From Mariprofundus sp. (GTDB lineage: Bacteria > Pseudomonadota > Zetaproteobacteria > Mariprofundales > Mariprofundaceae): DNA of 64,000 nt. Position numbers and translations under genes: made by a program. Numbering within the stretch: the stretch's first letter is position 1; the number at the start of each line of letters is the position of its first letter. A model generated the notes under the pieces. It saw only the letters and a list, made by a program, of their open reading frames with translations, ran no database searches and was not told where the DNA came from. This document shows, piece after piece, positions 1 through 60,506 of this stretch. The stretch lies in assembly GCA_021772775.1 (NCBI GenBank), contig JAJFLH010000032.1, positions 1 to 64,000 of the forward strand, written 5' to 3'.

Positions 1-3000
1 TTCCTCAGAAACAATTTCATCTGCAACAACTTCATCTACAATAGAGAGTTCATCTTCAGCACTCTCTTGCGCTGAAAACTCTGATAACAGGTTACCCAGC
101 TCTTCTGCGCCACCTTCTGAAGCTATTACTTCCTCAATAACTGTTTCATCTACAACGGTGATATCATCTTCGGTTTTTACTGGCTCAGAAAATTCAGACA
201 ACAGGCTGCCGAACTCTTCTGCTGCTTCAGTCGCGGCATCTGCAGTTGTTTCAACTTGGACATTTTCAATCTGAACATCTTCAACTTTTGCCGGTTCAGT
301 AAACTCAGATAACAGGTTGCCAAACTCTTCTACTGTTTCAGTCGCGGCATCTGCAGTTGCTTCAACTTGAACATTTTCAATTTGAACATCTTTAACTTTT
401 GCCGGTTCTGCAAATTCAGTAAACAGATTACCAAATTCCTCTATTGCATCACCTTCAGAGTAAGACTGGATCGAAGAGAGCTCATCTCCAAGGTCATCCA
501 TATCAGAGAACTCTGATAACAGACTGTCTAAGCCTTGGGTTGCACCCGCATCAAATCCTTCTGCCAAATCAGCGCCCGACGCCGAGCGCAGTGCAGACAA
601 CTCATCTTCAACATTATCCATATCAGAAAATTCTGATAATAGACTATCCAAGTCCTGAGTAGCACTAGCATCAAATTCTTCTGATACCTTCGTGCTCGAG
701 CTTGCAACATTGAATTCAGGCAGATCATCTTCAACATCAGTGATATCACTGAGTTCTGATACAGCCTCAGGCTGGGCAGATTCGACATGTAAATTTTCTG
801 AAGTTTTTGTCTCAAACTCAGGAAGATCATCTGCAGTATCATCCATATCAGAAAATTCTGATAATAGACTATCCAAGTCCTGCGTCGCACTGGCATCAAA
901 TTCTTCTGCTACTTTATTGCTAGAGCTTGCATTGAATCCAGATAAATCATCTTCAACATCACTGATATCACTGAGTTCCGATACAGCTTTTGGTTGGACA
1001 GCTTCGGCATCCAAATATTCTGAAGCCTTTGCACCATATTCAGGGAGATCATCTGCAGTATCATCCATATCAGAAAACTCTGATAACAAACTACCTAATT
1101 CTTGTGTAGCTCCAGCATCAAAGCTTTCTGATGTCTTAGCAGTACTCTCTACCGGCTCTACTTTGAGATCTTTTTCAACGTCAAAGTGCTCTATGGTAAG
1201 TTCATCACCAACAAATTCCATTGAGATATTTTCGTCAGCAGCACTATCAGCCAACGGATTCGGTACGTCATCTACGCCTTGGACAACATTGTTAGTTTCA
1301 AACGTTAAATCTACTGGCTCTTCTTTAAGCGAATCTTCCGTTGCCAGAGAATAAGCTTGGTCATTCGTATCTAATTCAACCTCTTCTTCACCAAAAGAGG
1401 GTTCGCTTAACCAGTCCAGTTCATCGACAGCCTCAGCTGCTTCAGCTTCAGGCTTTTCTGCAATCTCTCTTTGCTGCAAATCATCTGCGATTTCTATCTC
1501 TGAATCAGCACCTGATATTTCAATGCCAGACAGATCAAAATTTTCATTTCCTTCATCTTCAATTACTACCGTAGCTGGTGAATCAGCATCAAGCACAGGT
1601 TCAGCTATAGTAACATCAGCTACGCCGCCAAACGCTTCAACCGAAGATTTATAATTAGTTAGTTCAACCGCAGTCAGAACGGCTGCAGCTGCAGCAACAG
1701 CGGCAGCAAAACCAGGCTGATCTTCCTTAGCATGCAGCAGCTCTGCTTTCTTAATATGTGCTTCGCTATTCGCAGTATTCACGCGCAACGCCAGATCCAG
1801 CTGTTGTAAAGCCTCATCATCCATGCCGTAACGGATATAAACATCAGCTTCAGACAGGTAATCTACATTCGGATCAAATTTGGAATCGACGTCAAAACTT
1901 TCCAGTTCAGAGGTGTCGGTATCACTTAATTCATCCGTAAATGCAGACATGGAGTCCAATGTGGCAGTTGCTTTGGCTTCTGACTGCTCTTCATTGGTCT
2001 CAATATCATCTACTGCTTCTTCAACCACTTCCTCTAGCGATTCAGCTTTTGGCTCCACTTCAGCTGATTCAGTTTCCGGCTCAGCTTGAGTTGACTCAAC
2101 CTGTTCAGCCGGGTGCTCTGGCTCTTTGCGCATGCGCACAGCAATCACACCAAGCATAAGAATGACTAAAACAAGTAGTGTCCGTGTAATCCAGTCCGGT
2201 TCGTTAGCAACCTGAACAGTAGTCGTTTGTTCTGCTTGTTTGTCCAATTGAGCTTGCAAACGTGTTAATAGTATCTCTAATTTTTCAACTCGTGCATCAG
2301 ATGCCGCTGAAGCACCCTCATCAGCTTTCTCACGGAGTTCATCAACACTCTCTTTATTGGCAATCAGCTGCTGTTGAAGCTCATCGTTCTTTTCCTGCAA
2401 AGCGGCCAATAGTTGATTGGTTTCGGCCTGCACTTGCATCATCTTATCAAGCTGAGGGCTTATCAGCTCTTGAACAGCTTCAGGCAGATCTATTTCTACA
2501 GCTGTTTTTTCGCTTGAAACAGCTTCTTCCTCTACAGGGTTAAGTAAATCCTGTGTCTTTTCAACAGCTGGTGCAGTGTATGCTGTAGTTTCACCCTCGG
2601 CCTGCTCTCCAATACGCACACGATTTGTATAACGCGTACGTTGAGCTTCCTCTTCAACCGCATAGTGAGTTTGCTCTTTCCAGGCCGCTTTGTGATTAGC
2701 AACGATACGATATGCTTCGGATGGATTATGTTTCTCAACTTCATTGCCTTCAGGGACTTGTAAAAATGATCCGGCTTTGAGCAGATTTATGTTTTCCTGA
2801 TTGAAACTGGGTTTATTGTTTTCAAACAAACCAACCATGACCTGGTTGATACTATAACGTTCATCCACACGTAGACGCTTGGCAACCGTATATAGGCCAT
2901 CGCCTTTAACAATTGGTCCATATTTATCAGTTCTGGCCCATTGATCAGACTTAGCAAATTGCTCTTCTGCAACTTTCTGCTCAGGCATCACCACATTGCC

Positions 3001-3537
3001 TGCAGACTGGGTCAACTTCGCACCGGTTGGAGCGGATTCAGAAGTTTGTGATGTAAGGGATGGTTTCGTCGCCTCTACTTGAGCCACTGGCTCCAATGCA
3101 GCAACATTCTGAATCGATTTTTCAGAATCCAGGAATACTGAAAATTTCTTAAAGTGTGTAACACGACCATAACGAACTTTCAGTACTAAATTAAAGAACG
3201 GAGCCTGGATAGCAGCTCGTGAAGAGAGCTTGATACGCGCACCGCGCTCATCACTGGCAACATCAGCACGAATACCATCAAGGATTGGATCACGATATAC
3301 TTCAAAGATTTTGTAATCTGAGGCCGAAGCAATCTCAATGAACACTTTGGAAAGCAGTTCATTGCTTTCAAGATGAAGAGGGACTTCTGCATATAGCGGC
3401 TGCCCTAAAGAGCTGGCAACCTCAATCTTATCCAGAGAAGCCGCCTGCACCAAGCTGGAAAATAGAAGAACAGTAGCACCAAGACAAGCGACAACAGCGT
3501 TACGCCAAAGCCCTTTATGCCTTATTTGACCCCTCAT
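1..3537 (-). CDS. fimV: FimV-like polar/pilus assembly protein, partial (C-terminus off the left edge)
   Basis: Translation from ATG 3537 stays open to base 1, so at least 1179 residues are present and the end is missing. A signal-peptide-like hydrophobic stretch (about residues 14-32) leads into the FimV N-terminal domain (LDKIEVASSLGQPLYAEVPL). A LysM-like segment follows (YGPIVKGDGLYTVAKRLRV, then NINLLKAGSFLQVP), then a Gln/Glu-rich coiled coil, one membrane segment at about 446-465 (TLLVLVILMLGVIAVRM) and a FimV-type TPR motif at about 555-600 (LSEADIYIRYGMDDEALQQL). The remainder is very acidic and repetitive. FimV proteins bind peptidoglycan and organise type IV pilus and polar functions; that role is inferred here. 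The start has a strong Shine-Dalgarno (AGGGGGGAGT next to ATG). It lies downstream of leuB and asd, an order shared with gammaproteobacteria. Confidence 0.9.
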   Translation of the reverse strand, partial: MRGQIRHKGLWRNAVVACLGATVLLFSSLVQAASLDKIEVASSLGQPLYAEVPLHLESNELLSKVFIEIASASDYKIFEVYRDPILDGIRADVASDERGARIKLSSRAAIQAPFFNLVLKVRYGRVTHFKKFSVFLDSEKSIQNVAALEPVAQVEATKPSLTSQTSESAPTGAKLTQSAGNVVMPEQKVAEEQFAKSDQWARTDKYGPIVKGDGLYTVAKRLRVDERYSINQVMVGLFENNKPSFNQENINLLKAGSFLQVPEGNEVEKHNPSEAYRIVANHKAAWKEQTHYAVEEEAQRTRYTNRVRIGEQAEGETTAYTAPAVEKTQDLLNPVEEEAVSSEKTAVEIDLPEAVQELISPQLDKMMQVQAETNQLLAALQEKNDELQQQLIANKESVDELREKADEGASAASDARVEKLEILLTRLQAQLDKQAEQTTTVQVANEPDWITRTLLVLVILMLGVIAVRMRKEPEHPAEQVESTQAEPETESAEVEPKAESLEEVVEEAVDDIETNEEQSEAKATATLDSMSAFTDELSDTDTSELESFDVDSKFDPNVDYLSEADVYIRYGMDDEALQQLDLALRVNTANSEAHIKKAELLHAKEDQPGFAAAVAAAAAVLTAVELTNYKSSVEAFGGVADVTIAEPVLDADSPATVVIEDEGNENFDLSGIEISGADSEIEIADDLQQREIAEKPEAEAAEAVDELDWLSEPSFGEEEVELDTNDQAYSLATEDSLKEEPVDLTFETNNVVQGVDDVPNPLADSAADENISMEFVGDELTIEHFDVEKDLKVEPVESTAKTSESFDAGATQELGSLLSEFSDMDDTADDLPEYGAKASEYLDAEAVQPKAVSELSDISDVEDDLSGFNASSSNKVAEEFDASATQDLDSLLSEFSDMDDTADDLPEFETKTSENLHVESAQPEAVSELSDITDVEDDLPEFNVASSSTKVSEEFDASATQDLDSLLSEFSDMDNVEDELSALRSASGADLAEGFDAGATQGLDSLLSEFSDMDDLGDELSSIQSYSEGDAIEEFGNLFTEFAEPAKVKDVQIENVQVEATADAATETVEEFGNLLSEFTEPAKVEDVQIENVQVETTADAATEAAEEFGSLLSEFSEPVKTEDDITVVDETVIEEVIASEGGAEELGNLLSEFSAQESAEDELSIVDEVVADEIVSEE
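498..1105 (-). repeat. long-period repeats inside the FimV-like acidic region
   Basis: The words encoding LLSEFSDMDD recur in frame. The core tccatatcagaaaa begins at 617, 842 and 1064, giving periods of 225 and 222 bases (75 and 74 codons), and a further degenerate copy lies near 498. Between cores the unit runs through a conserved VSELSDI.DVEDDL stretch. More diverged copies (EEFGNLLSEF) continue toward base 1. Both periods are multiples of three, so unit gain or loss would keep the frame and change only the length of the acidic cytoplasmic arm. Confidence 0.8.
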
Positions 3538-37657: not shown

Positions 37658-39676
37658 TTAACCTTGAGATTCAACAGATAACATATAATTCTCATCACGA
37701 TAGCAGGCATCCAACCAAGCGAAAAATTGTGCCAACATTAAAGATGCCATACACCATACTGGAAAAACCTCATATGCTTGCAGCATGAAACCTAACATAA
37801 CAAAACCAGACAAAGATGTTAAAGCATAAACCCCTTCTATATTTCGCTGTTGCAAAAAGAACCTTCCCCCAGCGACAGCACAACTTAATAACATGCAGAC
37901 CCATAACACAAAAACAATAAAATGATCATTTTTCATTGTATAATAACTATTATCATACACCACCTTACTAGAAGATGAGCCGGCAGCTAATAATGAAATT
38001 GGACTCAAAGAATCTTTTCCCTCATCAAGGTTAACCTCCTTACCATTAACCATGGCTATATTTATCCATTCCTTTTTCACCCAACGTCTGGATAAAACTC
38101 CAGTTTTCTCCCATCGACTTTCATTCCAGGCATACATCTGCTGACAGTTGAAATCTCCCACACCCCGATATTCCATCCCTATAGAGAAATGATCCTCTTT
38201 CCACACACATGGCTTCCACCCAAGGTCAGTCCACTCCCCCTCTATCCATACACCATACTCCCATAACAATTCCACATCAGACTGAGTGTGCCATTGCTCA
38301 TCAGCCATATGCTTAACAACAAACCATCCAGTCTCCCCTAATAGAAAGGAATAATCTTGTGATCCATACCGTCGATCCTGTTCCCAATATCTATACCCCT
38401 GCTTATCAGTAAACCACTTACCCGGAACAGCTTTTCTGGCAATCATTTGGGTATCATAATATTCCCCTCCTTCCCAAGAAGCCTCCTTTTCCTGACAAAA
38501 AAACTTTCCATGATCTTCCTCGATAAATTGTAACCGCCCATTCTTCCATACACATGGACTCCATAGCAAAGCATCAGTCAGTTCAGCAGCAGCTTGAGCT
38601 TTAGCGCTGCGATTTTCCATCATATCCTGCATCATGGTATCTTTTTTGACATCAACACCAACCCGCCCATATATAGACGTTAACAATAGCACATCAGCCT
38701 GACCACCAAAGCAAACCTTCAGAAAGCTCTTTGGTAATGATAGATAGCGCTCACTTAAAGGCGAAAAAGAGCTATGAAGCAGCCCCGTAAAACACAAACC
38801 ACAAAATACAACAACATATAAACCCAAAGCTTTAAATGACTGCCTCCACGTCACACCTGTGCATAGTTTTAACCCACCATAGATCATCAACATAGCTATC
38901 AAAAACAACATAGAACTTCTGGATCCTGTTATATAGACCAAGGCTGCACCTACAAAGAAAAGCACAGCACAATAACTCAATGATGCTTTCTCATAATCTT
39001 TCAGATAGACCGCAAAGAAAACCAGCCCCGCCCCCCGCAAACCTAAAACATTGGGATTCAACAAGGTACTGCTGGCCCTGAACAAAGGACTACCATCAGG
39101 CATCAGCGAATTAGCCCATGAATGACCCAAACTTATTTCATATATACCTACAGCCAGAACTATAAGAGATAGAGATATTAAAACATTCAATTCAATCCGA
39201 GACCAAGAAACATCTCTCACTCTCAAACGAAAAGAGAACAAATAGGCTACAAAGAGCGTCATAATTAATGTGATCTCATTTCGAACAAGCAATAAACCAA
39301 GCTCTAATTGAGAAAAAAACTGATGCTCCAACGCAAAAGCAGCAATAAGAAGAAAAGTACAGGCAATGAAAACCCTTCCAGCCCTCCCACTAAGATCTAA
39401 AACATTTTCTCGATTATTTACAACAAACAACAACACCCACAGCAATAAAAACACTGCTTCAGCGAGTAAAGCATAGATATTACTAACATTGTGAAAATGA
39501 GTTAACTGAGTCATATCTCCAACAAGCAGAGAGGGTACGGTATAAGCATAGTGAAATGTTGCATACACAAAGAAAAAAAGAATAAATGGAAAAGGCTTTA
39601 TATATTTTACACCGAGCAATAGTGCAAAAACAAGAAATATATTTAAAAGCGGAAAACCATTAATGAGATAAGTCAC
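37658..39676 (-). CDS. Wzy-like polymerase/ligase with a Trp-rich periplasmic insertion
   Basis: A 672-residue membrane protein. Residues 1-345 give about nine helices of O-antigen polymerase character, with LLNPNVLGLRGAG and YITGSRSSMLFLIAM. Residues 575-672 resume with SYYTMKNDHFIVFVLWV and three more helices. Between them, at about 345-575, is a soluble block of some 230 residues, very rich in Trp, Tyr, Glu and Lys, where ordinary Wzy proteins have a much shorter periplasmic loop. It contains two similar units (WSPCVWK at 372-378 and WKPCVWK at 487-493), each followed by a second Cys (375/394 and 490/511). The block may bind glycan. Polymerase is inferred from topology and position next to Wzx and glycosyltransferases. 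Confidence 0.78.
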   Translation of the reverse strand: MTYLINGFPLLNIFLVFALLLGVKYIKPFPFILFFFVYATFHYAYTVPSLLVGDMTQLTHFHNVSNIYALLAEAVFLLLWVLLFVVNNRENVLDLSGRAGRVFIACTFLLIAAFALEHQFFSQLELGLLLVRNEITLIMTLFVAYLFSFRLRVRDVSWSRIELNVLISLSLIVLAVGIYEISLGHSWANSLMPDGSPLFRASSTLLNPNVLGLRGAGLVFFAVYLKDYEKASLSYCAVLFFVGAALVYITGSRSSMLFLIAMLMIYGGLKLCTGVTWRQSFKALGLYVVVFCGLCFTGLLHSSFSPLSERYLSLPKSFLKVCFGGQADVLLLTSIYGRVGVDVKKDTMMQDMMENRSAKAQAAAELTDALLWSPCVWKNGRLQFIEEDHGKFFCQEKEASWEGGEYYDTQMIARKAVPGKWFTDKQGYRYWEQDRRYGSQDYSFLLGETGWFVVKHMADEQWHTQSDVELLWEYGVWIEGEWTDLGWKPCVWKEDHFSIGMEYRGVGDFNCQQMYAWNESRWEKTGVLSRRWVKKEWINIAMVNGKEVNLDEGKDSLSPISLLAAGSSSSKVVYDNSYYTMKNDHFIVFVLWVCMLLSCAVAGGRFFLQQRNIEGVYALTSLSGFVMLGFMLQAYEVFPVWCMASLMLAQFFAWLDACYRDENYMLSVESQG

Positions 39677-48225: not shown

Positions 48226-48372
48226 CTAGAAACTTACATATATGAATGGCTCAATACTGAGGCTAAGTCGATGCAAGCTATAATGTGCCAACACTCCTAC
48301 GAACGACCCTAAAACAAAAAGGATCAGGCCGGAAATTGCCTTGGCAAAGTATTTAGTTAAATAGTTTTTCAT
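48226..48372 (-). CDS. 48-residue membrane microprotein ending in FIYVSF, DltX-like
   Basis: Translation from ATG 48372 to TAG 48226 gives 48 residues. A basic start (MKNYLTKYFAKA) is followed by one hydrophobic helix (residues 12-30, ISGLILFVLGSFVGVLA), a short linker and a C-terminus PFIYVSF. The last six residues fit F-x-Y-x-x-F at the very end of the chain. I recall the same tail on DltX, the small single-helix protein of Gram-positive dlt operons, where the C-terminal Tyr is thought to carry the acyl group between the MBOAT DltB and DltD. Here it lies 14 bases after an SGNH-type gene, which overlaps an MBOAT gene. A GAGAG lies 6 bases before the ATG. Function is inferred from tail and context. 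Confidence 0.75.
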   Translation of the reverse strand: MKNYLTKYFAKAISGLILFVLGSFVGVLAHYSLHRLSLSIEPFIYVSF

Positions 48373-48386
48373 ATGCAACTCTCATA

Positions 48387-49604
48387 TTAATCATTATCCA
48401 GAGTTAGTATTCTATCTGCAACCTCATCAGCCAACTTCCATCCACCTAATGTATTAAGGTGAAATGGATCAATAAAATCTTCTGCTTCAAAACGTGGTCT
48501 AACAACACTATAACCATAACTCTCGAATAATTCAGCCTTAGATTTATATATGTCTTCATATCCTTTTTGCACATCTTCGGCCATGTGGTCAAAGTAGTAT
48601 GGCGATACTCCAATATACGCAAGAATGATGTTACTACTCACTCTGGTTAAGTAATTATCTTCGATTTGCCTTGCAAGTTTAGACAAATACCTAGAAGAAA
48701 CCTCTTCCCCCCCGGATGAATCGTCGTAATAGGCACTAAGATTACTGTATTTACTCAACGTAGCCTTGAAGGCTTCGCTATCGACTGGCTGAGTGTAATG
48801 CGTTAAAGACTTCAACACTTCAAAGTCCACTTCAAAATCATAGTCGGGCCATATTTTTCGAGGTGTCCACTGCCAAGCGCCAGCATTTTGTGTGTAATAA
48901 CTGGTAAAGTAATTGTAATCTATATATGTCCATAAATCGTTATAGTAAAACAGCCCGTCCAGCAGCATGCTCAGTTCAATCTTTTCCAAATCATTACGAG
49001 CACTTTCACTGAGTTTTTTTCTATTCCCCTGAAACAGCGCCTTCTTTTCAGAGACATAATTCATAAGATCTGTCGAAAGCATATTTTTGTAGTAGGCATC
49101 CCAAAAATAGTGTTTTTGACTCATAACACCATCAGGAGGATAATGAACCACACCCTCTGACATATCCGACACAAGAAAAACTTCCTTATATTCAGCTCCC
49201 AATATATCCATTGTTGTAGAAGCAAAACCATTCAAAGCACCTGCTGGACCTGCTAAATTATACACACAATATCCATCGCCCAGATTTTCTTTCAATTTTT
49301 TACTCCACAAGTATCTAATTGGCTGACCAACCCCATTCATAATCGAACTACCACCAATAAGGACCAGCACATTCTCAGTGTCACACCCTGAACGAATAAC
49401 CTTGGAAATTTGAGAAGCAGAAAGCAAAAAATGATTATCGATTTGGTAAGGCCCTTGAACTCTTTCAAATGCTCCATAATAACCATCGTGGGCAAGCTTC
49501 ATTCCAAATATGACACATAATCCAAATCCAAATATAACCCCAAGAAGGAATATTCTGGGAGACCTGAAATGCTCTATTATCACGGAAAACAAGTTATTAA
49601 ACAT
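48387..49604 (-). CDS. Membrane-anchored SGNH-hydrolase-like protein (DltD/AlgX-type partner of an MBOAT)
   Basis: From ATG 49604 (8-base overlap with the MBOAT gene, ATGTTTAA) it has 405 residues. One N-terminal membrane helix (about 18-35) anchors a periplasmic domain. Block I of an SGNH fold reads VLIGGSSIMNGVGQ (Ser86/Ser87), NLAGPAGALNGF looks like the Gly block, and the C-terminal DPFHLNTLGGWKLAD supplies the Asp and His. Such proteins take acyl groups delivered by an MBOAT and place them on polysaccharide. A longer frame upstream (to 49676) has no support. A C7 run sits at 48707-48713. Confidence 0.82.
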   Translation of the reverse strand: MFNNLFSVIIEHFRSPRIFLLGVIFGFGLCVIFGMKLAHDGYYGAFERVQGPYQIDNHFLLSASQISKVIRSGCDTENVLVLIGGSSIMNGVGQPIRYLWSKKLKENLGDGYCVYNLAGPAGALNGFASTTMDILGAEYKEVFLVSDMSEGVVHYPPDGVMSQKHYFWDAYYKNMLSTDLMNYVSEKKALFQGNRKKLSESARNDLEKIELSMLLDGLFYYNDLWTYIDYNYFTSYYTQNAGAWQWTPRKIWPDYDFEVDFEVLKSLTHYTQPVDSEAFKATLSKYSNLSAYYDDSSGGEEVSSRYLSKLARQIEDNYLTRVSSNIILAYIGVSPYYFDHMAEDVQKGYEDIYKSKAELFESYGYSVVRPRFEAEDFIDPFHLNTLGGWKLADEVADRILTLDND

Positions 49605-50835
49605 GGAAAAGCGCCTTGAACATCGATATTGATTGATCAACAGGGTAGAAAAATAGTAGCCAACCAGCCCAAACAAAAACCATGGTAATTACCCAAGAAA
49701 CCCCCCAATTGATCGCCCCTAGAAAAGAAGAAAACTTTCTATTTCTTTGTTTAAAGTCTAATACGAATGATTTACCTTTTAAATTCAATATAAATGTCTC
49801 AAAGTATTGATGAAAAACCAAGCCAACCCCATGATAAGCCCCCCATAACACATAGTTCCAGGCAGCCCCATGCCACAAACCACAAATCACAAAAACTAAT
49901 ATCAAGTTAAAGCCGTGCCTTAAGGGAGACACACGATTACCGCCCATCTTTATATACAAATAGTCACGGATCCAAGAACTTAGTGAAATATGCCATCGAC
50001 GCCAGAATTCTTTAATATTCCTTGCCAAATAAGGCCAATTAAAGTTTTCTTGAATTTTAACTCCCATCATCCTTGAAAAACCAATAGCCATGTCACTGTA
50101 AGCGCTAAAATCTAAATATATTTTAAAGGCAATAGCTGCAAAGATTAACCATCTGTCTATTAAAGCATACGATGCAAATATTGGTACGGTACCAGCGACG
50201 TAAAGAGTAAGCATATCGCTCACAAATTTCTTACAAAAGCCGACAATCACTCTTAAAAAACCAACTTGTGTATCAAGTGATATCAGTTTGGCGTTGGCTA
50301 CTCCATGTTTCAGGGATGGGATAAAATGTTCAAATCTCTTGATAGGGCCCGCAACCAAGGTTGGGAAGAATGAAGCAAAGATTAAGAACTCTAAGGGACT
50401 AGAAATAGGCTTATTCCCATCTTTAACATCAACCAAATAGTGAATAAATTCAAAAACAAAAAAACTAATCGCCAGAGGGGCAACTACAGGAGACCATTCA
50501 GATGCAGGAATAGAACTTAAAGCCGGGAACAATTCCGCCAGACTACTAAATATAAATAGAGTATATTTATAAAACACCAAAGATAATGCAACGCAAAAGA
50601 TGACAAGGTTGATTAGTATTGAATTTTTAATCCTGCCTGCAAAATATGTTAAACAGCCTAAAGTCACTATCAGTAAAATGCCTGCATCCCCGGTAAAATG
50701 ATGATAAAAGGCAACACTAGCAACTGCGATCAGCAACATCCTCAAGCGTATTTTCACTGCAAAGTAGCCCGCAAGATAGTAAAGGCCCAAGAACCCAAAC
50801 ATAAAGACCAAAAACCAAAACGTAGTGAATATCAT
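49597..50835 (-). CDS. MBOAT family O-acyltransferase (AlgI/DltB type)
   Basis: A 412-residue multi-pass protein. Family motifs are clear: FPTLVAGPIKRFEHF, YLDFSAYSDMAIGFSRMMG, EFWRRWHISLSSWIRDYLYI, and the catalytic-histidine motif LWHGAAWNYVLWGAYHG. It should move an acyl group, often acetyl or D-alanyl, across the inner membrane for surface polymer decoration. It is followed by the SGNH-type gene and the microprotein, and a good promoter candidate lies just upstream, so these three may form their own transcription unit. Confidence 0.93.
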   Translation of the reverse strand: MIFTTFWFLVFMFGFLGLYYLAGYFAVKIRLRMLLIAVASVAFYHHFTGDAGILLIVTLGCLTYFAGRIKNSILINLVIFCVALSLVFYKYTLFIFSSLAELFPALSSIPASEWSPVVAPLAISFFVFEFIHYLVDVKDGNKPISSPLEFLIFASFFPTLVAGPIKRFEHFIPSLKHGVANAKLISLDTQVGFLRVIVGFCKKFVSDMLTLYVAGTVPIFASYALIDRWLIFAAIAFKIYLDFSAYSDMAIGFSRMMGVKIQENFNWPYLARNIKEFWRRWHISLSSWIRDYLYIKMGGNRVSPLRHGFNLILVFVICGLWHGAAWNYVLWGAYHGVGLVFHQYFETFILNLKGKSFVLDFKQRNRKFSSFLGAINWGVSWVITMVFVWAGWLLFFYPVDQSISMFKALFHV

Positions 50836-51012: not shown

Positions 51013-51402
51013 TCACACAGGCTTTAAAGACCAGAATTTTGCTGTGCTAAAGTTAAAAACAACAATTAATGGAATTAATGCTAATTGCACATAAAAAGGA
51101 TCAAACTTAGTGCTCTCTACGATGCGCTCTAATACGAGCACATTTAACGAGACTGATAACAATCCAGCTAAAATATATTTGATAAGACGTCCCTTGAATT
51201 TCAACACTTCTTCAGTCTTAAACACCCACACATAATTTAATGCATAAGTAAGAATCATTCCCAATAAAGATACAATCACAAGGGCAACCAAGTAATTAAC
51301 ATAGATTATCTTAACTAGAATATAAAATAAAATAAGCGTAAAGACAAAGTTTATAGCACCAACAACTGTAAACTTTGAAAATTCAACCTTCAACTTATGC
51401 AT
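51013..51402 (-). CDS. GtrA-like membrane protein
   Basis: About 129 residues from ATG 51402 (a GTG at 51414 would add four). Four membrane helices fill the chain (FTVVGAINFVFTLILFYILV, VALVIVSLLGMILTYALNYVWVF and two more). GtrA proteins are thought to flip undecaprenyl-linked single sugars or otherwise assist GtrB. The partner transferase gene is 26 bases upstream. Confidence 0.88.
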   Translation of the reverse strand: MHKLKVEFSKFTVVGAINFVFTLILFYILVKIIYVNYLVALVIVSLLGMILTYALNYVWVFKTEEVLKFKGRLIKYILAGLLSVSLNVLVLERIVESTKFDPFYVQLALIPLIVVFNFSTAKFWSLKPV

Positions 51403-51428
51403 TATTAATCTCACACATCAATACACCC

Positions 51429-52349
51429 TTACTTGAACTTCTCGCGAATAACATAGTTAGGCCTTTTGCGAATCTCCTCGTTAATGCGCCAAACATATTC
51501 ACCAATCACACCAAGCATCACCATAATCAGCCCTCCCACCACTAAAACGGCTATCATAAGAGGAGCCCAACCCTGAAATGGCGTTCCACCGGCAAGCCAA
51601 CTCACCACAATACTCAAGCTATACAGGATTCCAAATGCAGATGTTATCAATCCTACTAGCGAAATAAATCTAATTGGCAAATAGGATGCATCTAGCACTG
51701 CATCAAGAAAGTTTTTCAACTTTTTCCCGAAATTGTACTGAGACTTCCCAATCGTTCTTTCCAAACGAACATATGGAATGCAACTGGTTCGATAACCTGT
51801 CCAGAGTAAATCCCCCTGAAAGAACCTATGCCGAACATCAATTGCATTGAATTCATCCATGACTATCCGATCCATCAAAACGAAATCAAAACCTCCAGAT
51901 GGCATTTGAGGTATTGACAGTCGCATCACTCCATATGCTATTTTAGAGAATATCTTAGCAAGCAATGGATCAGAGCGATCCGTCCGGTGGGCAATTACAA
52001 TCTCAGAACCCTCTTGCCATTTCTCTATCATTTGCGGAATCAATTCAACTGGATCTTGAAGATCTGCCGAAATATTAATGACAGCATCACCAGTAGCCTC
52101 CTTGAAACCAGCCAGCATGGCTGCCATTTGACCAAAGTTTCTAGTAAAAGTGATTGCTTTAATTCTAGGATCTAGCTCCTTGAGGCTAAGTATCTCTTTC
52201 AGAGATCCGTCCTTCGAACCATCATCAACAAAAACAATTTCATACTCGTGATTATTTAACTCGTTTGAAAAAACCGACTGGATTTTTTCATGTGTTTTAG
52301 AGATAGCACCCTCGTTATGATAAACGGCGATAACAAATGAAACCTTCAA
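51429..52349 (-). CDS. GtrB-like polyprenyl-phosphate glycosyltransferase
   Basis: A 306-residue GT2: VSFVIAVYHNEGAISKTHEK, VFVDDGSKDGSL, FTRNFGQMAAMLAGFKEAT and the ISADLQDPVELIPQM DXD region, then two C-terminal membrane helices (about 225-285). This layout is that of bactoprenol glucosyl/mannosyl transferases that charge undecaprenyl phosphate with one sugar for periplasmic side-branch addition. No GtrC-type final transferase is evident next to it, unless the giant membrane protein at 57333-60506 fills the role. Confidence 0.9.
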   Translation of the reverse strand: MKVSFVIAVYHNEGAISKTHEKIQSVFSNELNNHEYEIVFVDDGSKDGSLKEILSLKELDPRIKAITFTRNFGQMAAMLAGFKEATGDAVINISADLQDPVELIPQMIEKWQEGSEIVIAHRTDRSDPLLAKIFSKIAYGVMRLSIPQMPSGGFDFVLMDRIVMDEFNAIDVRHRFFQGDLLWTGYRTSCIPYVRLERTIGKSQYNFGKKLKNFLDAVLDASYLPIRFISLVGLITSAFGILYSLSIVVSWLAGGTPFQGWAPLMIAVLVVGGLIMVMLGVIGEYVWRINEEIRKRPNYVIREKFK

Positions 52350-53095: not shown

Positions 53096-53554
53096 TTATG
53101 ACTCCTTAATGATATCTAGTCGCATGATAATGGAGCTATCATCCACATCAACTGCAACAAAACCTTTTTTCTCATATAGTCGAATTGCTTTCGTATTATT
53201 CTGATCTACTTCAAGTTCTAAACGTTGAAACCCCACCGATTCAGCATGCCTAATACAATCTGACATCAATCGCGATGCAACACCCCTTCCCATTGTATCA
53301 GCTAACACACTAACACTGGTAATATACGCTGTTCCACATTTCAAATCATTACAATACGTTGCCATCAACCCAACCAGGGCACCCTCCGACCACGCCTCAA
53401 ACCTCACAGCATTATTATATATTTTCGAGCTATATTCATTTAAGGCGACTCTCAAACTTAAATGCGGAACAAAATTCTCATCACAACTAGCTAAATGTTC
53501 AACGATCTCATTTTCAGATGCTTTATTCTGACCATAAATAATGGAACCCCTCAT
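53096..53554 (-). CDS. GNAT family acetyltransferase
   Basis: A 152-residue single-domain GNAT: TAYITSVSVLADTMGRGVASRLM (acetyl-CoA site with an altered Q/RxxGxG/A reading G-R-G-V-A) and GFQRLELEVDQNNTKAIRLYEKKGF. Its start overlaps the stop of the propeller gene upstream (ATGA). It probably acylates an amino sugar made by the aminotransferase at 56224. Confidence 0.87.
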   Translation of the reverse strand: MRGSIIYGQNKASENEIVEHLASCDENFVPHLSLRVALNEYSSKIYNNAVRFEAWSEGALVGLMATYCNDLKCGTAYITSVSVLADTMGRGVASRLMSDCIRHAESVGFQRLELEVDQNNTKAIRLYEKKGFVAVDVDDSSIIMRLDIIKES

Positions 53555-54513
53555 GGCTCCAGAACTGCCAATCCAAAACCAAAACGACCAAATTCGTTGC
53601 CATTATAAAGCAGATAAACCTTCCCATCACACTCGAACACATGAGGATAGCATAACATATCGGAATCCCAGTCTCCTGGTGTAACGTCAAGAAGAAGATC
53701 ATCGTCATCCCTCTTCCAATCCACCAGATCATCCGAATATGCATGACCAATACGGTAGCCTCGTCCAATGTTCTTTCTAAAGTCAAACGATTGCCGATAA
53801 CAAAAAAACATATGATGGCGCCCATCAATCTCTACTACTGTAGGCAGAGCCTGACTCTCTTCGCTCCCCAGTCGATCTGGAATAATCTGCCTAGATTCTT
53901 CCTTCACCCACTCAATACCATCGTTAGAAATAGCATGTCCAATCTTATAAGTACGATCTGGGGGAGCATCAGCAGAGAACTTTTTCCAGCCCGTACCAAA
54001 GATATACCACATGTGGAATACATCCCCTATTACCTTGACAAAACCATCTCCAACCAAACAAGGTTCATGCGGCGAAGCAGCCAACACAGGGCCATCTCCA
54101 AGGCGCTCGAAAGTCTTTCCCTCATCATGACTAACCGCTAAACCAACAGCCGTATCAACTGATACAGAAACACGACGATTCCAACCACAAGTATAGCCGT
54201 AAATCACACCATTATGTCTCAATACATTCATAGGGAAAATACCATGCTCATCAAAACACCCCAGTTTACCTAAAGAAATAACTGGTTGATCAGATACACG
54301 CATAATATCACGAAAATTCTTTTTGATATCAACGAAGGCAATGTGACTAAGGTACTTACCATTCTTCTTATCCACCGATCGAGTAGAAAAATAAATGCGA
54401 ACAAAATCATCAAACATCAATGTTTGAGGTGATTGCGCAAACTCGAGACATTCATTTGGCAATGAATGTTGAGTCGGATCAAATATTTTACCGAGTTTTC
54501 TCCACTTCATCAT
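53551..54513 (-). CDS. Glycosidase-like five-bladed propeller protein (copy 2)
   Basis: A 320-residue paralogue of the next gene upstream, similar from end to end. It opens with MKWRKLGKIFDP. The blades carry repeated aromatic/His/Asp motifs: VRIYFSTRSVDKKNGK, CGWNRRVSVSVDTAVG, MWYIFGTGWKKF, HHMFFCYRQSFDFR and LCYPHVFECDGKVYLLYNG. The fold resembles GH43/GH32/GH130-type propellers. No signal peptide is seen, so the protein should be cytoplasmic, odd for a hydrolase of surface glycan; it may be a phosphorylase, a transferase accessory or a sugar sensor. Confidence 0.8.
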   Translation of the reverse strand: MMKWRKLGKIFDPTQHSLPNECLEFAQSPQTLMFDDFVRIYFSTRSVDKKNGKYLSHIAFVDIKKNFRDIMRVSDQPVISLGKLGCFDEHGIFPMNVLRHNGVIYGYTCGWNRRVSVSVDTAVGLAVSHDEGKTFERLGDGPVLAASPHEPCLVGDGFVKVIGDVFHMWYIFGTGWKKFSADAPPDRTYKIGHAISNDGIEWVKEESRQIIPDRLGSEESQALPTVVEIDGRHHMFFCYRQSFDFRKNIGRGYRIGHAYSDDLVDWKRDDDDLLLDVTPGDWDSDMLCYPHVFECDGKVYLLYNGNEFGRFGFGLAVLEP

Positions 54514-54522
54514 GAATCTCCC

Positions 54523-55485
54523 TTAGTCCAATTCACCATCGAGCACTGCTAGGCCGAAACCACACCTACCTACCTGATCACCTAAATAGGCCAGATAGAT
54601 CTTTCCATCAAGCTCAAAAACATGTGGATAACTGATCATCTCAGCATCCCAGCCCTCTTCGGAGATATCGATACCTGCTTTGCTATCATCCCTCACCCAG
54701 TCCTTTAAGTTGGTACTTGATGCATAACCAATACGGTAACCATTCGCTTTCCCCCTATAATTGCTACTGTAGCGGTAGCAGAAAAACATATGATATTTAC
54801 CATTGGCATAAAACACATCTGGACTAGCTTGTGCCTCATCGCCCTCAATACGACTTTCAATCAAATCCTTGTTCATTTTGGACCAATGTAAACCATCATT
54901 GGAAGTAGCCATACGTATTTTATAGACAGGTTCAGCCCTTCCCTCAACTATTTTCCATTTACGACCAGCGATATACCACAAATACCAAATATTGTTAAAG
55001 CGCCGAATTTTGGGCCCACTTAGAACAAACGGCTCATCAAGAGAGTAAGATAACACAGGGCCATTACCAAGTTTACTAAAAGTCTGGCCTTGATCGAGAC
55101 TGGTCGCCATGCCAATGGCCACATTAAATGGTACAGATTCACAACGTGTCCATCCAGCATAATAAGCACGCACAGTGTCACCATCCCGGATTACTGAAAC
55201 CGGATAAGTACCGAACTCATCAAATTCACCAAATCCGCCAAGATTCAAAATCGGCTGATCGCTGACACGTAACACGTTGAATAGGTTATTACGATCAAGG
55301 TCAACATAAGCTGAATAACTAACAAACTGTCCCTGCTCATCTACTGGAGGCCGACATGAGAAATAGACTCGCACAAAATCTTCAAATACTAATGTTGCAG
55401 GTGCTTGCGCAAATTCCTTTAACCATGGCCTCCCCTGCACCTCTTGGGGAGTAAAAACCTTGCCTAACTTCTTCCATTTAAACAC
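54523..55485 (-). CDS. Glycosidase-like five-bladed propeller protein (copy 1)
   Basis: A 320-residue tandem partner with the same motif order: FKWKKLGKVFTP, EDFVRVYFSCRPPVDEQG, YYAGWTRCESVPFNVAIG, WYLWYIAGRKWKI, YHMFFCYRYSSNYRG and ISYPHVFELDGKIYLAYLG. Equal length and shared motifs show a gene duplication, followed by wide divergence. It overlaps wbqC by eight bases. The catalytic acids cannot be assigned by eye, and no enzyme activity is known to me for this exact subfamily. Confidence 0.82.
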   Translation of the reverse strand: MFKWKKLGKVFTPQEVQGRPWLKEFAQAPATLVFEDFVRVYFSCRPPVDEQGQFVSYSAYVDLDRNNLFNVLRVSDQPILNLGGFGEFDEFGTYPVSVIRDGDTVRAYYAGWTRCESVPFNVAIGMATSLDQGQTFSKLGNGPVLSYSLDEPFVLSGPKIRRFNNIWYLWYIAGRKWKIVEGRAEPVYKIRMATSNDGLHWSKMNKDLIESRIEGDEAQASPDVFYANGKYHMFFCYRYSSNYRGKANGYRIGYASSTNLKDWVRDDSKAGIDISEEGWDAEMISYPHVFELDGKIYLAYLGDQVGRCGFGLAVLDGELD

Positions 55486-56223: not shown

Positions 56224-57336
56224 TTATGAAGCTCCAATCAATTCAGTAATAATTTCTATTTCCTCCATACCCAATGTTGGATAGATAGGTAAACAGAGTA
56301 TTTTCTGTGCTGCAGAAGTCGCGACTGGAAGATTTTCACGATGAGCCGATGGCAATCCACGATACATAGGAAAATCAGAGATCAGCGGATAAAAATAACG
56401 ACGTGAATTGATACCATGATCTTTAAGCTTCTGATAAAGAGCATCACGACCGAGAGGGTAATCACTATCCACTAAAATTGGAAAATAGGAGAAGTTAGCA
56501 ACCTTTTCCCCAGTATCTGGTAAACAACGAATACCTTTCACTCCTTTTAAACGCTCACGATAGGCAACATCAACTTCCTTTCTCCCCAGGATTGCCGTAT
56601 CAATATACTGCAGTTGTAGCAAGCCCATTGCTGCGTTGACTTCACTCATCTTCCCGTTAATGCCAGGAGCAACTACAGTCAACTCTCCTTCATGGCCAAA
56701 GTTTTTCAATCGATCTATACGGGTTTTCGCCTTCGCATCAGGGCTAATAATGGCACCACCCTCAAAGGTATTAAACACCTTAGTCGCATGAAAACTCAGT
56801 ACCGACAAGTCACCATGCCTCAATATACCTCCACCCTCATCTTGCACTCCAAATGCGTGAGCGGCATCGTAAATAATCTTTAGATTATATATATCGGCGA
56901 TTTCCTGGATCGCTTCGACATCACAAGGGTGCCCATAACAATGCACGGGCATAATAGCCGTAGTCTCCGGCGTAATAGCAGCCTCAATCTTTGCAGGATC
57001 AATATTTAATGAGTTGGGATCAACATCTACAAACACTGGTTTGATACCATTCCACAGCAAAGAATGAGACGTCGCAACAAATGAATAAGGTGTAGTAATA
57101 ACTTCACCAGTTACGCGAAGAGCCTGCAAAGCAGTCACCAAGGCTATCGTACCATTAGTGAACAAAGAGATATGCTCAACACCTAGATATTCACCCAAAG
57201 CCTCTTCTAACTGCTGATGAAAGGGACCACCGTTTGTAAGCACCTTATTATCCCATATCTTCTCCAAATAAGGGACAAACTCGTCCAAAGGAGGCAAATA
57301 AGGTTGAGTTACATAGATAGGTTTTTTCATGATCAT
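56224..57336 (-). CDS. DegT/DnrJ/EryC1 aminotransferase, VioA/FdtB-like
   Basis: About 370 residues from ATG 57336 (ATGA overlap with the upstream stop), or 368 from ATG 57330. Motifs: VLTNGGPFHQQLEEALGEYL, FTNGTIALVTALQAL, IYDAAHAFGV and the PLP-lysine motif SFHATKVFNTFEGG, all intact. VioA- and FdtB-like enzymes make 4-amino or 3-amino-6-deoxy sugars on dTDP. With the GNAT gene downstream, an N-acylated amino sugar such as Qui4NAc or Fuc3NAc is plausible. Confidence 0.9.
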   Translation of the reverse strand: MIMKKPIYVTQPYLPPLDEFVPYLEKIWDNKVLTNGGPFHQQLEEALGEYLGVEHISLFTNGTIALVTALQALRVTGEVITTPYSFVATSHSLLWNGIKPVFVDVDPNSLNIDPAKIEAAITPETTAIMPVHCYGHPCDVEAIQEIADIYNLKIIYDAAHAFGVQDEGGGILRHGDLSVLSFHATKVFNTFEGGAIISPDAKAKTRIDRLKNFGHEGELTVVAPGINGKMSEVNAAMGLLQLQYIDTAILGRKEVDVAYRERLKGVKGIRCLPDTGEKVANFSYFPILVDSDYPLGRDALYQKLKDHGINSRRYFYPLISDFPMYRGLPSAHRENLPVATSAAQKILCLPIYPTLGMEEIEIITELIGAS

Positions 57337-60300
57337 TCTAACCAAACCCCCTTAAGAAGCATTGAAACAGACCTCCCATCATTATCAGGTAGGCGCTGAA
57401 GTGCATCACTTTCTATTTGAACCTTGGCAATCGAGCTATTATTAAACTGATCCGAGGAAAGTGGAACCATAATATCAACCTCACCTTTATCTTGTTTTCC
57501 AGTGTATACGATTTCGTCGTTAACCTTAATAGTGAGCAAAGGAGTGAAGGAGACTCCATTAATGTCCGGAATCAAACCCGTTAAATGCAACGACACTTTA
57601 GATTCGTTTGGTAGCGACTGAAGCACGACATAGGCCGCATCAGCCATCCAACCATCGTCAAAAACACCAGAATGATCCAGTCCTGGATCTTTCAATGCTA
57701 CAGGGAAATTCCGAACAGATTGTGGCCTCTTAATTTGCGCCTGTTCGTTAGGATATAGATTAGAAGAACGCTGAGAAAAAGAGACTTCCTTTAGAAGCAT
57801 TGAAACAGGCCTCCCATCATCATTAGGCAGCCGCTGAAGTGCATCACTTTCAATTTGAATTTTAGCAAACAAAGCACCATCGAACAAATCCGAGTCCAGT
57901 GGAACCATAAGATCCAACTCACCTTTACCCTGTTTCCCAGCGTATACGATTCGATCATTAATCTTAATAGTGAACAATGGACTAAAAGGCTCTCCATCGA
58001 CGTCCAGAATGAGCCCCCTCAAACGCAACGATGTTTTAGAGCTGTTTGATGGAACCTGCAATACCACATAGGCCGCCTCAGATATCCAACCGTCTTCAAA
58101 AATACCTGAATACTCCAAGCCAGGGTCTTTTAATGCAGCAGGAATACTTCGAACAAAATCTGGCCTCTTAATTTGAGCATATTCTTCAGGAGCCAAATAC
58201 GAAATCCCCCTAGAGAATCCAACAACCTTACGGGAATCCATTTTGACATAATTACCAAACAATGTCATCACACCTGTCTTTTCACGATCAAAGCTCATCG
58301 CCTTTCGTCCAAAATCAATCCCCATGAAGGTTGAAGAACCTATTTCTCTAGGATTAATTCGATCACTGATCAATCTAGCTGAGCCACGCCCAACAGGTTG
58401 CAATACTGTATCCCTATCTCCTACCACTTTAACAGGAGGCAACAGATACCCCTCCTGATTTACATTTGAAACACTCAAGGAGATTTGCATCCTGGACCCT
58501 TCTTTTGGCCCAAGCACTTCATAAACATGATATTGTCCTATCGCTGAAAAGGTACCACCTGAAAATAGAGGATCGCGCTCTAGCTGGTAGATAGGTGGAT
58601 CCATTACCTTGTTGTCAACACCTCTAGTGCGGGTCATCAATATAAGATGATTAGAAAAATCACTAATAGGATGAACCAGTAAAGACAACCCTTCTGAAGC
58701 AGTATCTCTATTAACAATACTAAATTCATTTGAAGTAGTCAGCAAATACTCATTAGAGTGTATTTTTGATCTAAAACCAACCACAAAACCATCACCTTCA
58801 TCAAGAAAGACAAACTCCTGCGGCTCCCCACCCGAATTCATTAATGGCAAAGAGCGATTAATACTATCAAAATGAACCCCCTTAAAGTAATAGGTCTCCA
58901 AGGAAAACAATTCAAACGATGGCGTGTCCGAGAAAATTTTCACATTAGTCAAATGACTGAATTTATCTCGAATACTCCTTAACTGTCTACCAAGTTCAGC
59001 GGTTGACGCATACGGAACAGGTGATGAACCAATATCTCCAGAGACGCGTGATATATTATATTGCTGCGCAGGAATTAAGGTCAGACCAATAAAAGTAAAT
59101 CCAAGATGGCGAAGAGTATTTTTCGTAACAAACAGGACTAATATTCCAACAAAAGCCGACACCAAGAACGGCTGGATAAACATAGCAATTTTTAATAACC
59201 CATATGCATTCCCGCCAATCCACAAGACTACTCCAACCAGCAACATGACAATCGTCATTTGTGCAGACGCTAGATATCTAACCCTAGATGTAAAAAGAAG
59301 GCCCGTAAAAAGCAATGTCGCCAACAACCCCAATACAATGACTACTGAATTTTCGGGGCCACTATATGGCATCCACCCTAAAAGCGTGGCACCATTACTA
59401 GGAACAAAGAAGTATGGAAAGGTGGATGTACCATCGACGTGCATGTTCATCCCACTATTTTCAAACGACATTTTTGCCGCAACCAATATGCGCTCTACCG
59501 TGCTTAAAATATAATTATTCAATAAAACAAACACCCCGCACAACATAATCACCAAGGTACGAAAATAAGAAAATCTTGCTGATGAAGAACGCCATTCTTT
59601 CCATCTCATTGCCTCATAAAGAAACACATACAGAACAAAAAAAGGAATGATTTCAAAATAAGAGACCGCCAAACAGCTAAATGCAAGAATGCTATAAATA
59701 CCCCACGGAAGGAATCTCTTAGCATTCATAACCTTCACGTACGAAACACAAAGACTTGTTAGCATTGTCAGTCCGATTGCTTGCGCCAATTGCTGAAAAG
59801 TCACTTCAAGGGTGAGCATAGGGGAAAGCACAACTAAGACTAAAGTCCAAAGAGCAAAAGACCATTTTCGGGTCCCTAGTAAAGTTAATGCTGCAGCGCT
59901 AGAGGCAACACAAAAATGAATTGCAATAAGAAGTGGCATATATTCTTGATGAGCCGTCAAGCCAGTAAAACCCGTAAGATATGCAAGCAGCAATTCTGAG
60001 CCTGTACGATATGACATCTCATTATGAAATGCCCATGTCATTAGCGAATGATCTTTAAGATCTACAAGATTTCCGGATATTGGTAATTCTGAGTAAGCAT
60101 AATCAAGTAACCGAGTAGATGAAACACTATAGTAACTCATATCTCCATTCACAAAAGCCAACCATTCAAATCCGAATTGCCATAGTGGCTCAGCAAGAGA
60201 AAGGATTGGAACTAATATAAAAAGACAATAAAGAATAAATGACCGGCGCCTTAAGATCATTCGCTGCTGATGAAGAAAATATAAGGATGCCAATAACATC

Positions 60301-60506
60301 AAAGCAAACAATTCGAGAGCAAATGTTTTAATCGGCAAACCAGCCCTACTTAAGGTAAATAATACAAGCACATTAAGTGCAACACCTAAAGTCGGGGCAA
60401 GTAAAAGGCGCGAATAAAAGCTCGCACGAAATCGCAAACACGAAAAAACAGCTAAGCCTGTAACTATCCAGATAAAAACCAATGCGCAGGTAAAAACAAT
60501 AGCCAT
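57333..60506 (-). CDS. Giant polytopic membrane protein with a duplicated C-terminal domain
   Basis: A 1057-residue protein I cannot name. Residues 1-480 hold 12 or more membrane helices in an arrangement reminiscent of GT-C glycosyltransferases or YfhO-like proteins, though I see no clear DD/DE signature loop beyond NGDMSYYSVSSTRLLD near residue 125. Residues 480-765 form a soluble, probably periplasmic domain. Residues 767-911 and 912-1057 are two copies of one domain, with shared words AQIKRP, ALKDPGL, DDGW/EDGW, AAYVVLQ and SDALQRLP. A role in the last periplasmic transfer of a GtrB-loaded sugar would fit but is only inference. The stop overlaps the following aminotransferase start. Confidence 0.75.
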   Translation of the reverse strand: MAIVFTCALVFIWIVTGLAVFSCLRFRASFYSRLLLAPTLGVALNVLVLFTLSRAGLPIKTFALELFALMLLASLYFLHQQRMILRRRSFILYCLFILVPILSLAEPLWQFGFEWLAFVNGDMSYYSVSSTRLLDYAYSELPISGNLVDLKDHSLMTWAFHNEMSYRTGSELLLAYLTGFTGLTAHQEYMPLLIAIHFCVASSAAALTLLGTRKWSFALWTLVLVVLSPMLTLEVTFQQLAQAIGLTMLTSLCVSYVKVMNAKRFLPWGIYSILAFSCLAVSYFEIIPFFVLYVFLYEAMRWKEWRSSSARFSYFRTLVIMLCGVFVLLNNYILSTVERILVAAKMSFENSGMNMHVDGTSTFPYFFVPSNGATLLGWMPYSGPENSVVIVLGLLATLLFTGLLFTSRVRYLASAQMTIVMLLVGVVLWIGGNAYGLLKIAMFIQPFLVSAFVGILVLFVTKNTLRHLGFTFIGLTLIPAQQYNISRVSGDIGSSPVPYASTAELGRQLRSIRDKFSHLTNVKIFSDTPSFELFSLETYYFKGVHFDSINRSLPLMNSGGEPQEFVFLDEGDGFVVGFRSKIHSNEYLLTTSNEFSIVNRDTASEGLSLLVHPISDFSNHLILMTRTRGVDNKVMDPPIYQLERDPLFSGGTFSAIGQYHVYEVLGPKEGSRMQISLSVSNVNQEGYLLPPVKVVGDRDTVLQPVGRGSARLISDRINPREIGSSTFMGIDFGRKAMSFDREKTGVMTLFGNYVKMDSRKVVGFSRGISYLAPEEYAQIKRPDFVRSIPAALKDPGLEYSGIFEDGWISEAAYVVLQVPSNSSKTSLRLRGLILDVDGEPFSPLFTIKINDRIVYAGKQGKGELDLMVPLDSDLFDGALFAKIQIESDALQRLPNDDGRPVSMLLKEVSFSQRSSNLYPNEQAQIKRPQSVRNFPVALKDPGLDHSGVFDDGWMADAAYVVLQSLPNESKVSLHLTGLIPDINGVSFTPLLTIKVNDEIVYTGKQDKGEVDIMVPLSSDQFNNSSIAKVQIESDALQRLPDNDGRSVSMLLKGVWLE
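57340..58210 (-). repeat. Tandem 435-base duplication encoding the C-terminal domain pair
   Basis: Two adjacent units of about 145 codons. Matching stretches are still visible in the DNA, for example around 57390-57430 and 57826-57860, so the duplication is fairly recent or kept similar by selection or conversion. Confidence 0.8.

Follow-up and report, generated by a model that had tools for sequence, protein, structure and literature searches.

A putative split MBOAT–SGNH acyltransferase with a separate shuttle microprotein in a Mariprofundus polysaccharide locus

A 64,000-nucleotide stretch of a Mariprofundus sp. genome (contig JAJFLH010000032.1; hereafter the window) contains three adjoining genes, encoding an MBOAT acyltransferase, an SGNH-type protein and a protein of only 48 residues, and the question they raise is whether a Gram-negative bacterium decorates a surface glycan by means of a separate acyl-carrying microprotein. 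The original prediction of their layout, in which the MBOAT gene is overlapped by the SGNH-type gene and the small open reading frame (ORF) ends in FIYVSF, is exact on the minus strand at 48226-50835 (Table 1). We hold with considerable confidence that the best explanation is an MBOAT-SGNH acyltransferase of split type, in which a separate shuttle microprotein relays an acyl group to the glycan of the locus; the relay, its substrate and the complex are inferred, and there are no biochemical or expression data.

The gene set and its surroundings

The SGNH-type ORF as listed spans 48387-49676 with a TTG start, and an in-frame ATG at 49604, giving 405 residues, was preferred because it aligns with the start of a 44%-identical homologue in locus L022. 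The MBOAT stop and this ATG overlap by 8 bases, and the microprotein ORF begins 14 bases past the SGNH stop, as predicted.

Table 1. Positions of the three genes, their motifs and the adjoining sugar genes in the window
Feature	Positions	Strand	Remarks
MBOAT acyltransferase	49597..50835	minus	412 aa, ATG start; short, DltB-length form without fused C-terminal hexapeptide
SGNH-type transferase	48387..49604	minus	405 aa; N-terminal membrane helix; Ser87 (GGSSIMNG), Asp379 and His382 (DPFH)
Shuttle microprotein (putative), DltX-like	48226..48372	minus	48 aa, one helix, N-in/C-out by charge
C-terminal hexapeptide F43-I-Y45-V-S-F48, proposed acyl carrier	48229..48246	minus	Tyr45 codon 48238-48240
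GAGAG, Shine-Dalgarno-like	48379..48383	minus	6 nt 5' of the microprotein ATG
GG(N/S) loop, MBOAT residues 296-303 (KMGGNRVS)	49927..49950	minus	Replaces the DltC-docking segment of DltB
GtrA-type membrane protein and PgfS/ArnC-like GT2	51013..52349	minus	Upstream of the three genes; Pfam/NCBIfam; sugar context, outside the relay

The microprotein (MKNYLTKYFAKAISGLILFVLGSFVGVLAHYSLHRLSLSIEPFIYVSF) has a single hydrophobic helix with lysines before it (best 19-mer at residues 12-30, mean Kyte-Doolittle value 2.1). Among the 895 window ORFs of at least 20 aa no other ends in F.Y..F, and under a first-order Markov model of local composition only 0.007 such hydrophobic small ORFs would be expected by chance per 6 kb strand. 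The Pfam DltX model (PF12459) did not match it even at an E value of 10, and matched two counterpart microproteins of Bacillota below the cut-off. Because a profile built from 24 counterpart microproteins also failed to find it (E = 11 in 1002 targets), no similarity outside the tail can be claimed.

The MBOAT is far better supported, with 98.6 bits against the Pfam MBOAT model (PF03062; cut-off 27). Its nearest NCBIfam model is DltB (TIGR04091), where its 163.4 bits fall under the cut-off of 375; true DltBs of Bacilli score 475-543 bits. The AlphaFold model (pLDDT 89) has DltB chains as its best PDB matches (TM 0.70), with HHAT and PORCN folds also matched. His282 and His322 (LWHG) are conserved in the alignment, and H322 is invariant. 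The protein ends in ...MFKALFHV, with no fused hexapeptide, and its gene is the only MBOAT gene in the genome.

The SGNH protein is the least secure of the three. It had no match in Pfam, and its AlphaFold model is poor (pLDDT 48.6), with weak PDB matches to an acyltransferase (E 0.04) and to several TesA/GDSL proteins (E 0.3-0.6). Its GGSSIMNG and DPFH blocks align with GDSL-positive SGNH proteins from split loci of Bacillota, which themselves match GDSL models and, weakly, DltD models. The assignment thus remains putative, resting on motif blocks and remote similarity only. Used as a query, the window protein retrieved nothing related from plasmids, from 84,980 genome species or from the 398 genomes of its phylum; it evolves too fast to serve as a search anchor.

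The surroundings bear out the description of an O-antigen locus, since the window encodes a Wzx-like flippase, a Wzy_C/O-antigen ligase, WbqC, DegT and several glycosyltransferases, and a LapB-type zinc-ribbon protein agrees with a Gram-negative origin. The polysaccharide locus also holds three DegT aminotransferases and GNATs, and directly upstream of the MBOAT gene lie genes for the GtrA-type protein, the PgfS/ArnC-like GT2 and a methyltransferase. The acceptor is probably the glycan made by this locus, an inference for which we have no acylation data. Elsewhere in this biosynthesis locus, two adjoining 320-aa proteins (53551-55485) gave weak glycoside hydrolase 32/43-like matches, and two ORFs at 57333-60506 (1057 aa) and 37658-39676 (672 aa) had no Pfam match at 1e-4.

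Separate and fused tails among MBOAT relatives

MBOAT relatives were scanned across 84,980 species, and genomes were surveyed in the phylum of the window (398), in Acidobacteriota, the phylum of L022 (396), in the order of L023, a Legionellaceae genome (143), and in the class of L077, a Brevibacillus (200). Every long MBOAT (173 of 173; median length 487 aa) carried F-x-Y-x-x-F fused at its C-terminus, with F, Y and F invariant; the commonest ending was FIYFQF (99 of 173 rows, some of them near-copies). A shuttle microprotein was found beside none of these 173, three pattern matches having been rejected, one as a neighbouring fused MBOAT and two as ORFs judged to be chance. Short non-Dlt MBOATs with readable flanks numbered 19, the window included, and came from Pseudomonadota, Acidobacteriota and Bacillota; all lacked the fused hexapeptide, and each adjoined a single-helix ORF of 34-48 aa bearing the tail, which read F-[IL]-Y-x-x-F in 18 and FLYYGH in one (L280). 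The original prediction would have been refuted had relatives with the same MBOAT-SGNH pair not conserved the small ORF and its ending, and it withstood this in all 19 assessable non-fused, non-Dlt cases. The closest relative, L022 (MBOAT 50% identical), also pairs a short MBOAT with an SGNH gene, but the SGNH frame is broken and the contig stops short of where a microprotein would lie, so L022 was left out of the count.

The prediction had placed such a machine in a Gram-negative locus, which stands, but a restriction to Gram-negatives does not, since operons of the order SGNH-MBOAT-microprotein with a short, non-Dlt MBOAT are common in Bacilli (L264-L273), with tails such as FIYTDF, FIYNNF and FIYEGF. 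One Bacilli genome (G1068) carries a non-Dlt split system alongside a true dlt operon. Gram-negative split systems are few (the window, the truncated L022, L023, L171, L174 and L280), and they are rare in the sample of the window's own phylum. In relatives from the same class the MBOATs are 466-586 aa long, align with the window protein over approximately residues 1-346 and end in FIYFQF, FIYFDF, FLYFQF and similar sequences. The divergent system of L280, in a genome from the order of L023, has its microprotein gene at 2994-3137 (minus strand), the final Phe of the tail being replaced by His.

Several candidates did not hold up. Short-looking plasmid MBOATs (Rhizobium, Proteus, Loktanella and Priestia) all proved fused and long, and short frames in three genomes of the phylum survey (G207, G094 and G219) were due to contig ends or a frameshift. 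None of 43 MBOATs on IMG/VR viral contigs was of the non-Dlt split type; one short MBOAT there, beside a DltX-like ORF ending in FIYNEF, was judged to be DltB. One fused-type MBOAT (L172:3152-4570) is interrupted by a single in-frame stop and was scored separately: 42 bases past the stop, an ATG in the same frame opens a 45-aa ORF containing the last helix and PFIYFQF, which may reflect a recent natural fission, a pseudogene or a sequencing error.

The genes of the split systems occur in four orders, MBOAT-SGNH-X in the window (X being the microprotein), MBOAT-X-SGNH in L023, SGNH-X-MBOAT in L171 and L268, and SGNH-MBOAT-X in most Bacilli, L174 and L280, frequently with overlap of stop and start. 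In a trio of related Bacilli loci, strong purifying selection acts on the microprotein (dN 0.04-0.08, dS 0.9-2.3); this estimate does not extend to the window gene, which has no close relative usable for it. The sole invariant column in 15 aligned microproteins, including four true DltX, is the tail tyrosine, Tyr45 in the window.

A tree of 55 MBOATs was built on window residues 20-345 only, leaving out the C-terminal columns that constitute the trait itself. One branch (support 100/98) has every split MBOAT, together with DltB, to one side and every fused MBOAT to the other, and a larger, quicker tree on more columns gave the same division. The break in L172 aside, a single change suffices to explain the trait, so the nominal Fisher value of 1e-26 for the association overstates independence. 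The Gram-negative split MBOATs (window/L022, L023/L171 and L174) are placed between DltB and the rest, and in these trees the split MBOATs make up an ancient group next to DltB and are not an isolated case. Because the root is undetermined, fusion cannot be distinguished from fission; DltB sits on a long branch, and under a midpoint root fusion would be derived. No other surveyed genome of the window's genus had a short-form MBOAT, which suggests that the gene set was acquired horizontally together with the sugar locus.

Acyl donor and proposed relay

In the Streptococcus thermophilus DltB, the carrier protein DltC docks on helix HC (PMC11035591). At the corresponding place all six DltBs compared have a longer segment without a GG pair, and the window MBOAT has MGGNR, a GG(N/S) loop shared with every fused MBOAT sampled and with almost all of the other split ones. 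PatA, a fused-type protein, uses acetyl-CoA as donor (PMC12148441). Because the loop stands where DltB has its docking segment, acyl-CoA is the likelier donor and probably that of the window system, in line with the original prediction; this is an inference drawn from sequence alone.

The main alternative, that the donor is an acyl carrier protein in a Dlt-like pathway with another carrier, is unlikely but deserves to be kept in mind, because the split architecture is itself DltB-like and L174 has PP-binding-like and LnmK-like hotdog proteins upstream. However, no carrier or ligase gene lies near the window genes, and the window MBOAT keeps the very loop that the six DltBs and L174 are without. 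The predicted absence of dltA and dltC also holds across the whole genome, where DltC had no match and the DltA-like matches, generic AMP-forming ligases only, scored no higher than 52 bits (cut-off 560). The operon in the Acidobacteriota locus (L174:1215-4645), which encodes a PP-binding-like small protein, an LnmK/hotdog-like protein, an SGNH protein, an MBOAT without the GG(N/S) loop and a microprotein ending in FIYRGF, looks like a carrier-charged, Dlt-like system outside Gram-positives.

We thus propose for the window a relay that would start from a cytoplasmic thioester, most likely acyl-CoA. The MBOAT would accept the acyl group of this donor, which is most likely acetyl, and would load it, via His322, onto Tyr45 of the microprotein, whose tail is envisaged as sitting in the periplasmic funnel of the MBOAT. 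From the tail the group would pass to Ser87 of the SGNH protein, and this second enzyme would acylate a periplasmic glycan of this locus, lipid-linked O-antigen or similar. The acyl-tyrosine step is inferred by homology with DltX and PatA, and both the acyl group and the acceptor sugar are guesses. Acetyl-Tyr on the hexapeptide motif has been demonstrated for PatA (PMC12148441), and D-Ala-Tyr on the DltX tail is described in the same paper.

The microprotein might instead be a structural or assembly subunit only, with the acyl group passing from enzyme to enzyme and Tyr45 carrying nothing. DltX has been described as binding DltB and DltD in one complex (PMC12148441), a 2024 study of DltB still calls its role unclear (PMC11035591), and a covalent intermediate cannot be shown by sequence data. 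Nevertheless, we think this quite improbable: the tail tyrosine is the only position that does not vary, a mere scaffold would need no such tail, the fused forms retain F-x-Y-x-x-F without exception, and acyl-Tyr has been shown for PatA.

The last possibility, that the MBOAT gene has been truncated or is decaying and that the small frame is there by chance or as a leftover, can draw on the break in L172 and on the rarity of such systems in the phylum sample, but is refuted for practical purposes, since the window MBOAT groups with split MBOATs and not with the fused relatives of its class, the chance expectation is very low, 18 counterparts exist in other loci, and the SGNH gene that separates MBOAT from microprotein means that no frameshift or stop in a fused gene produced this arrangement.

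Relation to known acylation systems

The preferred reading, a split acyltransferase with a shuttle microprotein, places the window system between systems already described. It resembles Dlt, the DltB-DltX-DltD machinery that together with DltA and DltC D-alanylates teichoic acid in Gram-positives, in its short MBOAT without fused motif, its separate single-helix FxYxxF microprotein and its SGNH partner, and also in an MBOAT fold nearest to DltB on the same side of the tree. It differs from Dlt in lacking DltA and DltC, in an MBOAT that scores 163 bits where the DltB model requires 375, in the GG(N/S) loop that takes the place of the DltC-docking segment, in a microprotein that falls below Pfam DltX, in gene order and in its setting in a Gram-negative O-antigen locus. 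With the PatA/PatB, AlgI/AlgJ-X and WssH/I pairs it shares a GG(N/S)-loop MBOAT, an SGNH partner, the same hexapeptide and the absence of a carrier protein nearby, but in the PatA/AlgI/WssH type the MBOAT carries the hexapeptide on two additional helices at its C-terminus, whereas the window has a separate 48-aa protein and an MBOAT of 412 aa. AT3-SGNH surface-glycan O-acetyltransferases (OatA, OafB) have the task proposed for the window system, likewise in O-antigen loci, and also use an SGNH domain as second enzyme; unlike the window system, their membrane half is AT3, unrelated to MBOAT, and they have no shuttle microprotein.

Non-Dlt MBOAT/SGNH pathways have been said to be without a DltX-like microprotein and to have the motif fused instead (2025 PatAB paper, PMC12148441). 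The putative system in the window and its counterpart loci contradict this statement, and a full-text literature search, which did not cover subscription papers, found no paper on a DltX-like microprotein outside Dlt. What is new is the combination of a fused-type donor loop with a Dlt-type split shuttle. We lean, by a modest margin of belief, towards a broader conclusion, that non-Dlt MBOAT-SGNH systems of both Gram types widely include a separate acyl-shuttle microprotein, which has so far gone unrecognised, and that this architecture may be ancestral, with DltX as one specialised branch and the PatA/AlgI type derived from a single fusion of helix and tail onto the MBOAT.

The current picture pairs a carrier donor with a separate microprotein (Dlt) and an acyl-CoA donor with a fused motif (PatA, Alg and Wss). 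The split loci uncouple donor type from shuttle architecture and provide an intermediate that had been missing between these two types. A shuttle that is a protein in its own right can be altered by mutation, exchanged for a fused tail or provided in trans. These loci also add a class of genes of 34-48 codons, easily overlooked, beside the genes that decorate surface glycans.
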